Of a stretch of 64,000 bases of DNA, positions 23,586 through 29,832 are shown in pieces. Both the position numbers and the translations under genes were made by a program. Every line of letters begins with the position of its first letter. Position 1 is the stretch's first letter. The notes below the pieces were generated by a model that made no database searches, was not told the origin of the DNA, and was given only the letters and a program-made list of their open reading frames with translations. The stretch comes from Frigoribacterium sp. MEB024 (lineage in GTDB: Bacteria > Actinomycetota > Actinomycetes > Actinomycetales > Microbacteriaceae). The stretch spans positions 1 through 64,000 of the forward strand of contig NZ_JXQZ01000017.1 in NCBI RefSeq assembly GCF_000878135.1, written 5' to 3'.

Positions 23586-25085
23586 ATGAGCCACCCCGAG
23601 CGCGCACGCGACCACCCCCGGGAGGCGCGGGTCGCCGGCCGCTGGCGCCGCGCCTCCCCGGGTCGTCGCCTCGTCGGCGTGCTGGGCGCACTGGTCGTGG
23701 CGTGCACGCTCGTGGCCGCCGGGGCGGTCTCGGTGGCACCGCGGTACGGCGACGGCCGCCCCTGGACGGGGCTCGCGGTCGACGACCTCAGACGGTCGCC
23801 GGACGCGACCGGCTGGACCCTCGACCTGGCGGCGACGCTCGCGCCGGACGCACCCCGTCGGTGCCTGAACTTCTGGGCGTCCCCGGCGGTCGACGGACTC
23901 GTGGCGGTCGGCACCTCGGTCGACCTCGACTTCGGCGACGCGTTGGGCGCGCCGGCCTGTCGGTCGTACGCGTCCGCGGCGGACACGAGCCTGATCGGGC
24001 TGGTGGAGACGGCGACGGGCACGGTCCGCTGGGTGCACGACCTGGCCCGTGACGTCCCCGACACCGACGCCCTGAGCATCCCCGCGACGCAGGTCGTCCC
24101 GTCGGCCGGTCGCGTGCTGGTGCAGACCCAGACCACGGGGGCGACCGTGCTGGCCGCCCTCGACCTGCGCGACGGTTCGCTCGTCGAGTCGACCCGCGGC
24201 CGGCGCGACCTGCCCAGCGTCAGCGTCGACTCGCGGGGACCCCTGCAGCTGCGCACGTTCTCGGGCATCGCCGGGTCGGGCGACCGCTACCAACTGGTGG
24301 AGGCCTCGCGTCTCGCCGACCCGGTGTGGGAGGGCGGGGTCGACTCGGGCAGTTCGCCGGCGCTGCTGAACGACGGCGCCCTCGTGTCGCGGGGCGGCGA
24401 GACCGTGTTCGTCGACGCCGCCACGGGCCGGGAACGACCGTTCGCGGCGTCGCCGGACGAGATCGCCGTACCGCCCGTCGGCTCGTCCGTGACGACCGAG
24501 GACGGGCGCCGCGTCGTCGCCTTCGGCATCGAGCGCACCCGTGCGAACGGCACCGTCGAGGCCCTCGACGACGACGGTGAGGCCGTCTGGAGCCGCCCGA
24601 CCAGCGGCCGTCGGCTCGCGGTCACGCCGTCGTGCGTGGTCGTCGTCACCGGCGGCGACACGGCGGCGGAGTGCCTCGACCCCCGCGACGGCACGGTCCG
24701 CTGGACGACCGACCTCGGTGCCCCGTTCGCGGTCGAGGCCGTGCCGGGTCAGCGCGCGGCCGACGTGTTCGTCGTCGTGCAGCGATCGGGTGGGTCACGC
24801 CTGCTCGCCCTCGACGGCACCGACGGACACACCCGCTTCAGCTCGTCCGTCGGACTGCTCGACGACCTCGCCGCGGCGGGCCGGTCGGTGCTCTACCTGC
24901 AGACGGACGACGGTCGTTCGTCGGGGCGGAACGTGGCGGCCCTCGACCTGGACGACGGCCGGCCGCTCTGGACGACCTCGACGTCGGGCAGCGTGGCGTT
25001 CTGGGGCGGTCACCTCGTGCGGATCGACGAGCAGGGGGTCGCCCGGCGGCTCGTCGACACCGCCCGCGTCGGGGCGACGTCGTGA
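23586..25085 (+). CDS. PQQ-type beta-propeller repeat protein (first of a tandem pair)
   Basis: A 499-residue protein with an Arg-rich cytoplasmic start and one membrane anchor or signal segment at about residues 28-50. The secreted domain has repeated units ending in variants of G-x-x-x-W ([33 protein letters not shown]), typical of PQQ-binding-like or outer-membrane assembly propellers. No quinoprotein active-site residues can be assigned, so a structural or ligand-binding role is as likely as catalysis. GAGGAGG lies 8 bases before the ATG. It overlaps the following paralogue by 4 bases. Confidence 0.85.
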
Positions 25086-26527
25086 GGCCGGGACGCCGGC
25101 TGGCCGTGACCTACGCCGTCGTGGCCCTGGCCGCGCTCGCGACGACGGCCCTCGTCGCACCGACGCAGCCCGAGTACGGGGCCGACCCGCCCTGGCAGGG
25201 CGTCGAGGTCGACGACCTCCGGCAGGAACCCGGCACGACCGGGTGGCGGGTCGACCTGCGGGCCGCCCTCGCGCCCGAGGCCCCCGCCGAGTGCCTCCGC
25301 TACCGGGCCACACCCGTCGAGCAGGGGCTCGCGCTCGTGAGCGCCGCCGGGGCCTGGACCTACGGCTTCGCCAACGACGGCGACTGTGCCACCCCGACCC
25401 AGGGAGTCGGCACACGGATCGGTGCGCTCGACGTCGACCGCGGCACCTTCCGCTGGGTGCACGACGTCGCCGACGACCTCGCCGGGCTCGACCTGACCGG
25501 ACCCGCCCTCGTGTCGTCCGTGACGACGGTGCCCGGGGCAGGACTCGTGCTCGTCCGGGCGGCGGTGGACGGCGAACAGGTGCTGGCGACGCTGTCCCTC
25601 GAGACCGGGCGTCCCGTCGAGGTGGTCGAGACCGGCTCGGCCGGCGACGGGGACCAGTTCCAGACCGTCGGAGCCGTGGTGGTCACCGGACGACAGCAGG
25701 GCGTCGGAGGCGTCTACCGCTACGACCTGCGCGACGCCCGCGACCTCGACCGGGTGGTGTGGAGTGGACCCGCCTCGACCACGGGCGTCGCCCTCGCCCT
25801 GACCGACCGGCTCGTCGTGGCCCGGGCGGACGGCTCGGTCCAGGTCGACCTCGTCACCGGCGTCGAGCGCCCCTGGGGTGCGCGGCTCGACCGGCTGATC
25901 GGTTACGTCGTCCACGACGACGTCGTCTACGCCCCCCGAGGAGGCGCGGCCACGGGACGCGGGGACGCGGGCTTCGTCGCGTTGACCGCCGGCGGCGAGC
26001 GTCTCTGGAGCTCGGACCGCGACGTCCGGGGCGGCTACTCGGTGACGCGGTCGTGCCTCGCCGTCACCGACGTGCGTTCGCGGACGGTGACGTGCCTCGA
26101 CCTCGCGACCGGAGAGGCGCGGTGGACCGACCGGGCGTCGAGCTCGTCCGCCCTCGAGGGCCTGCCCGGTCAGACCGACGACCGCGTCTTCGCGACGGCG
26201 ACCGCCGCGGGCCCCGGCCCGGTCGTGGTCCGCGCACTCGACGGGTCCACCGGCTCGGCCGGCGCACGGGTGTCGCTGCCCGACGGAGCCGTCCTCGCGG
26301 CCGCGGGGCGGACGGTCGGCTACGCCCTGGCGTACGGCAGCTCGGGCGGCCGGTCGACCCTCGTGGCGTTCGACCTCTCGAGCGGGCGCGCCCTCTGGGA
26401 ACACGCCGCGGAATTGCAGGTCTACGCCTGGGCGGGGCGGCTGGTGGACGTGGACGTCGACGGGGTCGCGCGGGTGCTGGTCTCCCCCGATCGCCTCGCG
26501 GTCCCGACGGGCTCGTCCGGAGGGTGA
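25082..26527 (+). CDS. PQQ-type beta-propeller repeat protein (second of a tandem pair)
   Basis: A 481-residue paralogue of the preceding gene. After an N-terminal membrane anchor (residues 8-26) it repeats the same opening block: [18 protein letters not shown] versus [18 protein letters not shown] in gene one, then [10 protein letters not shown] versus [10 protein letters not shown], and [11 protein letters not shown] versus [11 protein letters not shown]. Later blades show [15 protein letters not shown] and GRALWEH. The GTG start overlaps the TGA of gene one (GTGA), so the pair is translationally coupled and likely arose by tandem duplication. Function unknown. Confidence 0.85.
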
Positions 26528-26544: not shown

Positions 26545-26560
26545 TCGAACACGTGTTCGA
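26545..26560. promoter_or_regulatory. Perfect LexA (SOS) box upstream of alkB
   Basis: TCGAACACGTGTTCGA is a perfect 16-bp palindrome that fits the actinobacterial SOS operator TCGAAC-N4-GTTCGA exactly. It lies 20 bases before the alkB start and covers the expected -35 position of a promoter whose -10 is TAGGGT (26569-26574), an ideal place for repression by LexA. Confidence 0.75.
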
Positions 26561-26568
26561 ATCGAGCG

Positions 26569-26574
26569 TAGGGT
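26569..26574 (+). promoter_or_regulatory. -10 element of leaderless alkB promoter
   Basis: TAGGGT lies six bases before the ATG at 26581. No ribosome site is present between them. Confidence 0.5.
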
Positions 26575-26580
26575 GTCGGG

Positions 26581-27225
26581 ATGAGCCTCCCCTTCACCGC
26601 CTCTCTGCTCGACGGCCTGTCCGACGGCCCCGACCTCGCGCCGCTCGTCGGGCGCGTCGACCACCTCGACCTCGACGAGGGCGCCTGGCTGGACGTCGTC
26701 CCGGGCTGGGCGTCGAATTCCGACGCCCTGTTCGAGCGTCTCGTGACCGACGTGCCGTGGCGAGCCGACCGCCGCCAGATGTACGACCGGGTGGTCGAGG
26801 TGCCCCGGCTCGTCTCGTCCTACGACGTGGGCGACGCACTCCCGGACCCCGTGCTCGCCCAGGCTCGAGACGACCTCAACGCCTACTACGCGCACGAGCG
26901 CGGTGCCCCCGTCGAGCAGCGCTTCGACCGGGCGGGGCTGTGTTTCTACCGGACGGGCGACGACAGCATCGCCTGGCACGGTGACCACGTGGGGCGCACG
27001 ATCGACCGCGACACGATGGTGGGCATCCTCTCGCTCGGGGCACCGCGCACGCTCGCGGTGCGGTCCCGCTCGACCGGCACGACCCGGCGGTTCCCGCTCG
27101 GCCACGGCGACCTCCTGGTGATGGGCGGAAGCTGCCAACGGACCCACGAGCACGCCATCGCCAAGACCAAGAAGGCCGTCGGTCCTCGCATCAGCGTGCA
27201 GTTCCGACCGGTGTGGCCCTCCTGA
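26581..27225 (+). CDS. alkB: AlkB-like 2-oxoglutarate/Fe(II) dioxygenase
   Basis: A 214-residue member of the AlkB family, which removes alkyl lesions such as 1-methyladenine and 3-methylcytosine from DNA or RNA by oxidation. The double-stranded beta-helix shows the iron-binding HxD in AWHGDHVG (near residue 138), the distal His in RTHEHAI and the 2-oxoglutarate-binding Arg region GPRISVQFRP. The start at 26581 follows a -10 by six bases. A perfect LexA box in its promoter predicts DNA-damage induction. It stands alone between the propeller pair and a LacI-type regulator. Confidence 0.93.
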   Translation: MSLPFTASLLDGLSDGPDLAPLVGRVDHLDLDEGAWLDVVPGWASNSDALFERLVTDVPWRADRRQMYDRVVEVPRLVSSYDVGDALPDPVLAQARDDLNAYYAHERGAPVEQRFDRAGLCFYRTGDDSIAWHGDHVGRTIDRDTMVGILSLGAPRTLAVRSRSTGTTRRFPLGHGDLLVMGGSCQRTHEHAIAKTKKAVGPRISVQFRPVWPS

Positions 27226-27312: not shown

Positions 27313-28344
27313 ATGCCGGCAACCCGTGACGACGTGGCGCGTCTGGCAGGCGTCTCGTCGAGCACCGTGTCGTACGCCATCAGCGGGCGACGGACCATCT
27401 CCGCCGCCACCCGCCGCCGGGTCGAAGCGGCGATGGCCGAGTTGAACTACACGCCCAACGCGTTCGCCCGGGGTCTCGCCGGCGCACGTGGCGGCATCCT
27501 CGCCCTGCACTACCCGTACGGACGCCGCGGCGTCACGTCGTCCGAGTTCGAGTACGTGGCGGCGGCCACCGACCGGGCGAGATGCCGGGGTTACCACCTG
27601 CTGCTGTGGTCGAACCCCATCGACGACGTCGAGGGACTCGGCAGCCTCGTGAGCGAGGGCCTGGTCGACGGCGTGATCCTGATGGAGCTCACGGCACGCG
27701 ACGACCGCGTGGCCGTGCTGTCGCGGTCCCGTCTGCCGTTCACGAACATCGGGCGCCCCGACGACGTCGACGGGCTCTGGTTCGTCGACGCCGACTACGA
27801 CTCGCTGGCCCGTCAGGCGGTCGACCACCTCGCCGACCTCGGCCACCGGCGCGTCTTCTTCCTCGGGCAGAGCATCCGGACCCCCGAGCGCGGGTCCGGT
27901 CCGCTCGACCGGACGTCGAGGGCGCTGGTCCGCCCCGTCGGCGAGAGGGGCCTGACGCTCGAGACGCATTCGGCCGACGACTCCGTCCCGGGGGGCCGCC
28001 GGGCCTTCGACGCCTTCGTCGCCTCGGCGGCCCGACCGACGGCGGTGCTCGCCTTCAACGAGATGGCGCTCGCCGGCTTCGTGCAGGCCGCGGCGACGGC
28101 CGGCCGGTCGATCCCGGACGATCTCACGGTCGTCGCGTTGAGCATCGGCGACCTCGCCGCCGAGATGACCTCACCCCCGCTCACCACCGTGAACCCGCCC
28201 GGCGCCGACATCGCCGCCGCCGCGGTCGACGATCTCGTCGACCGCATCGAGGGTCGACGCCACGACGCCCCCCACGTCCTCGTGGCACCACGGCTCGTCG
28301 TGCGGGGCACCTCGGCGCCTGCTCCCCCCGAGCGGACGACCTAG
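27313..28344 (+). CDS. LacI-family transcriptional regulator
   Basis: A 343-residue repressor with an N-terminal helix-turn-helix at residues 4-24 (TRDDVARLAGVSSSTVSYAIS), a hinge helix (YTPNAFARGLAG) and a periplasmic-binding-protein-like sensor domain. It lies 129 bp upstream of a sugar ABC importer on the same strand, so it most likely controls that importer in response to its sugar. The -10 TATGCT near 27278 and purine-rich GAGGTGGACGAG before the ATG indicate a leadered transcript. The sugar cannot be read from sequence. Confidence 0.92.
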   Translation: MPATRDDVARLAGVSSSTVSYAISGRRTISAATRRRVEAAMAELNYTPNAFARGLAGARGGILALHYPYGRRGVTSSEFEYVAAATDRARCRGYHLLLWSNPIDDVEGLGSLVSEGLVDGVILMELTARDDRVAVLSRSRLPFTNIGRPDDVDGLWFVDADYDSLARQAVDHLADLGHRRVFFLGQSIRTPERGSGPLDRTSRALVRPVGERGLTLETHSADDSVPGGRRAFDAFVASAARPTAVLAFNEMALAGFVQAAATAGRSIPDDLTVVALSIGDLAAEMTSPPLTTVNPPGADIAAAAVDDLVDRIEGRRHDAPHVLVAPRLVVRGTSAPAPPERTT

Positions 28345-28354
28345 CAGATCCGGT

Positions 28355-28404
28355 TGCGCGCCTCCTGCGAGTATGTGACACTCATCGTCGACGCGCGTCG
28401 ACGA
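28355..28404 (+). promoter_or_regulatory. Importer promoter with a 20-bp palindromic operator
   Basis: TTGCGC (28355-28360) and GACACT (28378-28383), 17 bp apart, form a plausible promoter. A perfect 20-bp palindrome at 28385-28404 (centre CGCGCG, arms TCGTCGA) begins two bases after the -10 and would cover the start point. A CpG-centred palindrome is the typical LacI-family operator form, so the adjacent regulator is the likely ligand. The binding assignment is inference. Confidence 0.5.
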
Positions 28405-28473
28405 CGACGTGCGGCGGACGATCATCCCGACAGCACGGGCCGTCCGCTCTTGCGACTCAATGAGGAGACACCA

Positions 28474-29832
28474 ATGCGAGCATCCCTGCACCGCCGCTTC
28501 ACGGGCCCCCTGGCCATCCTGGCGGCGTCGAGCTTCCTGTTGGCCGGTTGCTCCGGCACGGCCGACCCCAACGACCCCAACGCCGGAGGCGCGGGTGCCG
28601 GCGACGTCGGAACCGCCGACGGCGTCGTCAACGTCTACGGCACGATCAACGGCGACGAGGCCACGCTCCTCGAGCAGTCCTGGGCCGACTGGGAGAAGGC
28701 CAACGACATCGAGATCAAGTACACGGGCGACAAAGAGTTCGAGAAGCAGATCGGCATCAAGGTCCAGGGTGGCGACACCCCCGACCTGGCGATCTTCCCC
28801 CAGCCCGGCCTGCTGGCCGACACGGTCGCGTCCGGCAAGGTGCAAGAACTGCCCGCCGATGCGCTGGCCAACGTCAAGGAGGGCTGGTCCGAGGACTGGC
28901 AGAAGTACGGTCAGGTCGACGGCAAGCAGTACGGCGCCCCCCTGATGGCCAGCGTCAAGGGCTACGTCTGGTACTCCCCCGCCAAGTTCGAGGAGTGGGG
29001 CGTCGAGGTCCCCAAGACCTACGACGAGCTCGTCGCCCTCTCGAAGACCATCCAGGAGAAGACCGGCGGCCCCTCGTGGTGCGCCGGCTTCAACTCGGGC
29101 GAGGCCTCGGGCTGGCCCGGCACCGACTGGGTCGAGGACCTCGTCCTGCGCGAGGCCGGCCCCGACGCCTACGACTCGTGGGTCGCGGGTGACACGAAGT
29201 TCACCGACCCCGAGATCAAGGCAGCGTTCGACTCGGTGGGCGACATCCTGCTCGACCCGAGCCTCGTGAACGCCGGCTACGGCGACGTCAAGTCGATCAA
29301 CTCGACCGCCTTCGGCGACGTCGCGACGAACGTGGCGAACGGCAGCTGCGCCCTGACCCACCAGGCCTCGTTCTTCGAGGGCTTCCTGACGGCCGCGAAC
29401 AACGCGAGCGGTCAGCCGGCGACGGTCGCCGAGGACGGCGACGTCTGGGCCTTCCTCACCCCGCCGATGAAGGAGGACGACCCGGCAGCCGTCACCGGTG
29501 GTGGTGAGTTCGTCGCCGCGTTCTCGAACGACGACGACACCGCCAAGGTGCAGGCGTACCTCGCCAGTGCCGACTGGGCCAACAGCCGCGTCTCCCTCGG
29601 TGGCGTCATCTCCGCGAACAAGGGCCTCGACCCCGAGAACGCCGGCAGCGACCTGCTCAAGGGCGCCGTCGAGATCCTCCAGGGCACCGACACCACCTTC
29701 CGCTTCGACGGTTCCGACCTGATGCCCAAGTCGGTCGGCTCCGACAGCTTCTGGAAGGGCATGGTCGACTGGATCGACGGCACCGACACCGACACGGTGC
29801 TCGACGAGATCCAGGCCGGCTACACCTCGTAA
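28474..29832 (+). CDS. Sugar ABC transporter substrate-binding lipoprotein
   Basis: A 452-residue family 1 (maltose/alpha-glucoside type) extracellular solute-binding protein. The signal peptide ends in lipobox LLAGCSG (about residues 21-27), and a Gly/Ala/Asn-rich linker precedes the folded domain. Recognisable elements are LEQSWADWEKAN, QGGDTPDLAIFPQPGLLAD, YGAPLMASVKGYVWYSPAKFEEWG, and TGGGEFVAAFSND. GAGGAG lies before the ATG. It is the first gene of the importer operon. A strong hairpin follows it, which would keep its expression above that of the permeases, as is usual for binding proteins. Confidence 0.93.
   Translation: MRASLHRRFTGPLAILAASSFLLAGCSGTADPNDPNAGGAGAGDVGTADGVVNVYGTINGDEATLLEQSWADWEKANDIEIKYTGDKEFEKQIGIKVQGGDTPDLAIFPQPGLLADTVASGKVQELPADALANVKEGWSEDWQKYGQVDGKQYGAPLMASVKGYVWYSPAKFEEWGVEVPKTYDELVALSKTIQEKTGGPSWCAGFNSGEASGWPGTDWVEDLVLREAGPDAYDSWVAGDTKFTDPEIKAAFDSVGDILLDPSLVNAGYGDVKSINSTAFGDVATNVANGSCALTHQASFFEGFLTAANNASGQPATVAEDGDVWAFLTPPMKEDDPAAVTGGGEFVAAFSNDDDTAKVQAYLASADWANSRVSLGGVISANKGLDPENAGSDLLKGAVEILQGTDTTFRFDGSDLMPKSVGSDSFWKGMVDWIDGTDTDTVLDEIQAGYTS

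Follow-up and report, generated by a model that had tools for sequence, protein, structure and literature searches.

The alkB gene of this Frigoribacterium is very probably a member of the SOS regulon under direct repression by LexA. This assessment draws together an exact LexA operator in front of the gene, boxes of the same kind at other regulon genes of the same genome, and conservation of the box upstream of alkB homologues. Since LexA control of alkB has prior reports in Streptomyces and in Mycobacterium tuberculosis, the result is unsurprising, though it stands as a solid confirmation; what is new here is the breadth of the conservation and the possibility that a published operator has been misplaced. 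The features concerned are listed in Table 1, with positions in the window, by which we mean the whole stretch of 64,000 nucleotides that was analysed.

Table 1. Features at the alkB promoter, with positions in the window
Feature	Position	Strand	Description
LexA operator (SOS box), predicted	26545..26560	.	perfect palindrome TCGAACACGTGTTCGA
Inferred -35	26546..26551	+	17-base spacer from -10; inside operator
-10 element TAGGGT (TANNNT)	26569..26574	+	ends 6 bases before alkB ATG
alkB	26581..27225	+	214 aa Fe(II)/2-oxoglutarate dioxygenase, PF13532

The alkB operator and the LexA boxes of the genome

The first-pass annotation of the window held that a perfect palindrome of the LexA consensus precedes alkB, that it covers the -35 region of the promoter, and that the -10 element lies six bases before the ATG. 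Direct reading of positions 26545-26581 bears this out, giving in order TCGAACACGTGTTCGA, an 8-base spacer ATCGAGCG, TAGGGT, GTCGGG and the ATG. The operator is palindromic over all 16 of its bases, has no mismatch to TCGAAC-N4-GTTCGA, and stands at position -36 relative to the ATG. The placement of the -35 within the palindrome follows from spacing, in that a 17-base distance from TAGGGT would put the hexamer there; no classical sigma-70 promoter was called by a generic consensus promoter scan. A transcription start about 7 bases past the -10 would mean that the mRNA begins at the alkB ATG, and the transcript is therefore predicted to be leaderless. Within the window TCGAACACGTGTTCGA is the sole exact match to the consensus, and four further matches have two mismatches; the resulting total of five at up to two mismatches is at chance level (4.0 expected, with 37 of 100 shuffles reaching five).

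The 214-aa product matches PF13532 in a Pfam search (E 4.2e-16), and no NCBIfam family was found above threshold for this open reading frame. The solved structures that match it at E 0.001, 16 in all, each bear the name ALKBH3 or ALKBH2; E. coli AlkB is absent among them. Its HxD, distal H and R catalytic positions align with those of human ALKBH3. From the family, the enzyme would be expected to demethylate 1-methyladenine and 3-methylcytosine, both of which arise chiefly in single-stranded DNA. The closest relative with a name is Frigoribacterium sp. Leaf8, whose AlkB is 98% identical. The distribution of the gene is patchy, with a match at E 1e-10 in 56 of 398 family genomes and 76 of 396 phylum genomes sampled.

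RecA-driven cleavage of LexA is the established SOS mechanism, and the arrangement at alkB suggests how it would operate in Frigoribacterium. A LexA dimer bound to the palindrome would cover the putative -35 and block RNA polymerase at alkB. Upon DNA damage, single-stranded DNA would give rise to RecA filaments, LexA would cleave itself, and the alkB operator would be freed; the promoter could then direct a leaderless alkB mRNA, and hence an oxidative demethylase that would repair 1-methyladenine and 3-methylcytosine.

The remainder of the regulon appears to use the same operator. In the 3.4 Mb genome there are five exact sites, that of alkB included, and none for a reversed control pattern; at up to one mismatch the counts are 39 and 4, respectively. 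Several of the one-mismatch sites fall inside long frames, and one-mismatch matches alone therefore carry little meaning. The genome has one recA and a single LexA match, the latter with PF01726 DNA-binding and Peptidase_S24 domains. Upstream of recA, 248 bases before its start, lies TCGAACACGTGTTCGG (one mismatch), followed after 8 bases by TAGCGT, such that recA and alkB share a near-identical palindrome at an equal 8-base spacing from a TANNNT element; a second, weaker box is also present upstream of recA. Two boxes precede lexA, TCGAACATGTGTTTTG (three mismatches) at 96 bases and CCGAACATACATTCGA (two mismatches) at 190 bases before the start. For a DnaE-type polymerase with PHP and DNA_pol3_alpha domains, which we infer to be DnaE2, an exact site begins 55 bases ahead of the start, and a DUF6504 gene on the same contig has TCGAATGTGTGTTCGA in front of it. 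Another exact site lies directly before a radical SAM gene. The scan for further LexA boxes thus found them at recA, lexA and the polymerase (one mismatch, two and three, and none, respectively), all of one consensus, and with a single LexA match in the genome this speaks against the concern that its LexA might recognise a different sequence.

It could be argued that the alkB palindrome is itself a chance match, given that some one-mismatch sites, and apparently the fifth of the exact sites, lie within coding frames. This is extremely improbable, and we reject it on the genome control (five exact sites versus none) and on the survey described below, in which conservation is far above all controls.

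A separate observation concerns an exact box 33 bases before an 89-aa open reading frame that has no Pfam family (L003:1501-1800, contig C73); this is possibly a hitherto unrecognised SOS gene.

Conservation of the box and of the promoter layout

Conservation was surveyed in two samples. In the family, 55 of 57 matches were used, two fragments of genome G368 being left out; in the phylum, all 77 matches besides the window's own were used and split at 52% identity into 30 closer and 47 more distant homologues. A box with at most two mismatches lies upstream of alkB in 53 of the 55 family loci (with three mismatches in the remaining two), in 27 of the 30 phylum loci at 52% identity or above, and in 27 of the 47 below, where some of the boxes, at distances above 100 bases from the extrapolated start, may reflect chance or a wrong start. 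The box is thus kept in relatives, as the first-pass annotation would predict: pooled, it is found in 107 of 132 windows upstream of alkB homologues versus 4 of 131 windows further upstream, where related genomes are counted separately and independence is therefore overstated. By set, the further-upstream control gave 1/55, 0/30 and 3/46 (family, closer, distant), and a control inside the gene gave 6/55, 1/30 and 6/47. With one mismatch the upstream counts are 49, 18 and 17 and both controls are zero throughout, and five permuted palindromes at two mismatches are found at 0 to 4 loci per set. When the search is limited to the 70 bases preceding the extrapolated start, the box is present in 53/55, 27/30 and 24/47 loci, versus 0 to 1 for each permuted palindrome; two best sites of the closer phylum set lie near -130 (L134 and L138), and the count within 70 bases is still 27 of 30.

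A set of named loci gives a similar picture, with the proviso that it overlaps the survey in species and is not independent of it. Readable upstream DNA was available for 78 of 80 loci (L088 and L089, where the match is at a contig edge, were left out), and the best site has no mismatch in 15, one in 48, two in 14 and three in 1. Herbiconiux, Subtercola, Frondihabitans, Nocardia, Geodermatophilus, Modestobacter, Klenkia and Actinoplanes are among the genera represented. Overall, the box is present in Frigoribacterium, in the 10 further alkB-bearing genera sampled from its family and in other families of the phylum, and one locus or more with a box inside 150 bases occurs in 37 of 56 genera. 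Another family of the class to which Frigoribacterium belongs (f6, 14 loci), whose homologues show 53-61% identity, has the box with at most two mismatches at all 14 loci, nine of them with the form TCGAACN4GTGCGA. At the other end, three families (f9, f41 and f74) have it at 0/5, 0/2 and 0/3 loci. Of the more distant homologues, 20 of 47 are without a box at up to two mismatches, and LexA control of alkB is therefore not universal; inspection by eye of 14 boxless upstream regions from this set found no clear shared motif.

Of the 53 family boxes, 47 have their first base 35 to 39 bases ahead of the extrapolated start codon. The -10 could be tested for in 84 closer homologues (of 85) and 28 distant ones (of 47). 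A TANNNT whose end lies 6 or 7 bases ahead of the first in-frame start occurs in 69 of the 84, where shuffles predict 2.2, and in 14 of the 28, where they predict 0.4. Among the distant homologues (L181-L227), where a -10 accompanies the box, the box tends to have its first base 26 to 30 bases ahead of the start, directly abutting the -10, a layout roughly one helical turn nearer to it than that of the closer homologues.

An alignment of ten sequences from the genus has 13 of 16 columns invariant in the box, 7 of 74 upstream of it and none of the 20 that separate it from the ATG; in this last stretch TANNNT comes back as a pattern whose place varies by a base or two. The alignment bears on a further alternative, namely that another dimeric regulator binds the palindrome, or that LexA acts alongside a second damage regulator such as PafBC (a RecA-independent regulator of mycobacteria), which would make alkB only partly an SOS gene. 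This idea has some basis in M. tuberculosis, where, in the part of the study drawn on here, alkB still responded to mitomycin C and AlkB protein was present after mitomycin C in a recA/pafBC-depleted strain, a result that points to a further input to alkB in that organism (PMC8151990). For Frigoribacterium we consider it unlikely: the alkB palindrome is nearly that of recA and similar to those of lexA in the same genome, and the alignment has no strong conserved block above the box. Direct control by LexA is the reading that we retain.

Precedents and differences in other bacteria

The first-pass annotation implied that an actinobacterial alkB under LexA control would be novel, and on this point it was mistaken. 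The excerpts of PMC9380542 consulted describe alkB of Streptomyces venezuelae (vnz_32390) as a LexA ChIP-seq target that is 11-fold upregulated with mitomycin C, give the LexA motif as tCGAAC-N4-GNNCGa, and list a radical SAM gene, dnaE2, recA and lexA in the regulon, as is likewise seen in Frigoribacterium. In M. tuberculosis, alkB is described as a putative SOS-box gene with a RecA-dependent response to mitomycin C (PMC8151990, in part), and Rv1000c is 8-fold upregulated with moxifloxacin (PMC7911356, in part). This gene, alkB Rv1000c, is a putative SOS-box gene, as here, and a candidate orthologue of the alkB in the window; it differs in belonging to a different family and, going by the same portion of PMC8151990, in possibly receiving a further input beside LexA. 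A literature search with coverage of few subscription journals found no paper on LexA-controlled alkB in Microbacteriaceae or Frigoribacterium, and a search by title with the same coverage found no phylum-wide survey of LexA-controlled alkB.

The S. venezuelae operator itself merits a second look. The box listed for alkB in PMC9380542 is GGTTACGCTGGATC at -20, which is unlike the consensus, whereas the Frigoribacterium operator is a perfect palindrome at -36. When this 14-mer was searched for in 199 genomes of the presumed Streptomyces genus it was found in four. Three of the four occurrences begin 15 bases before the AlkB start codon and hold a TACGCT -10; the fourth precedes an unrelated gene. 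In these three genomes (L254, L256 and L257) a diverged palindrome with two, three and three mismatches (e.g. TGGAACATATTTTCGA) starts 21-22 bases before GGTTACGCTGGATC. As GGTTACGCTGGATC in these presumed Streptomyces relatives coincides with the -10 and start region and a palindrome lies 21-22 bases upstream of it, the S. venezuelae operator is likely to be found upstream of the listed box, and the published box, which looks like a -10 element, is possibly misplaced. Two points stand against misplacement: the table in PMC9380542 marks the alkB box as experimentally validated, although the sites that section 8 of that paper names for its binding assay are those of lexA, recA, dnaE2 and uvrA only, and the listed distance is -20 as opposed to the 15 bases seen in the presumed Streptomyces genomes.

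These observations can be assembled into a broader proposal, in which LexA control is the old default wiring of alkB in actinobacteria, the operator has remained with the gene through distant lineages, the promoter comes in two layouts (the operator over the -35 in closer homologues and displaced towards the -10 by roughly a turn of the helix in distant ones), the transcript is commonly leaderless, and the published S. venezuelae box is really a -10 element. Taken jointly, we regard these statements as evenly balanced between true and false. Were they true, AlkB in this phylum would answer to stalled forks and single-stranded DNA rather than to methylation itself.

The comparison with E. coli is of a different kind. 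There alkB likewise encodes a damage-inducible oxidative demethylase of the AlkB family but is induced by Ada, according to the part of PMC4437013 used here, whereas the Frigoribacterium gene has a site of the repressor type. The Ada zinc-binding domain (PF02805) has no match in the Frigoribacterium genome in a search that does detect it in 6 of the 14 genomes used as controls, among them E. coli and B. subtilis. The statement in the first-pass annotation that the wiring differs from Ada control in E. coli therefore agrees with the genome. Control of alkB by an Ada-type adaptive response, with the palindrome incidental, has the E. coli precedent in its favour (PMC4437013, in part); it is nevertheless highly improbable here, since the palindrome is kept across genera, and we reject it because the genome yields no hit to the zinc-binding domain of Ada. 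With LexA as the more credible regulator, Frigoribacterium and its family are added to the organisms whose AlkB seems to be part of SOS and not of Ada, and the survey suggests that this is common in the phylum. Membership of the SOS regulon would place AlkB in a programme for single-stranded DNA and replication stress, which fits the preference of the enzyme for single-strand lesions.

Genes around alkB

Across the 80 named loci, with flanks of up to 2.5 kb, the gene upstream of alkB recurs in 9 and the neighbouring LacI gene in 7, all of them Frigoribacterium. Shared flanking genes are thus confined to this genus, which argues that the box travels with alkB and not with synteny; we accordingly rejected the idea that it is kept through synteny alone.

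Two adjacent open reading frames before alkB (23586-25085 and approximately 25058-26527) look by eye like paralogues of a repeat, beta-propeller-like type. The second of these has no Pfam or NCBIfam family, and among the 80 loci it occurs in Frigoribacterium only. Downstream of alkB, positions 27313-29832 hold a LacI-family regulator followed by an open reading frame that, by eye, resembles a sugar-ABC solute-binding protein.
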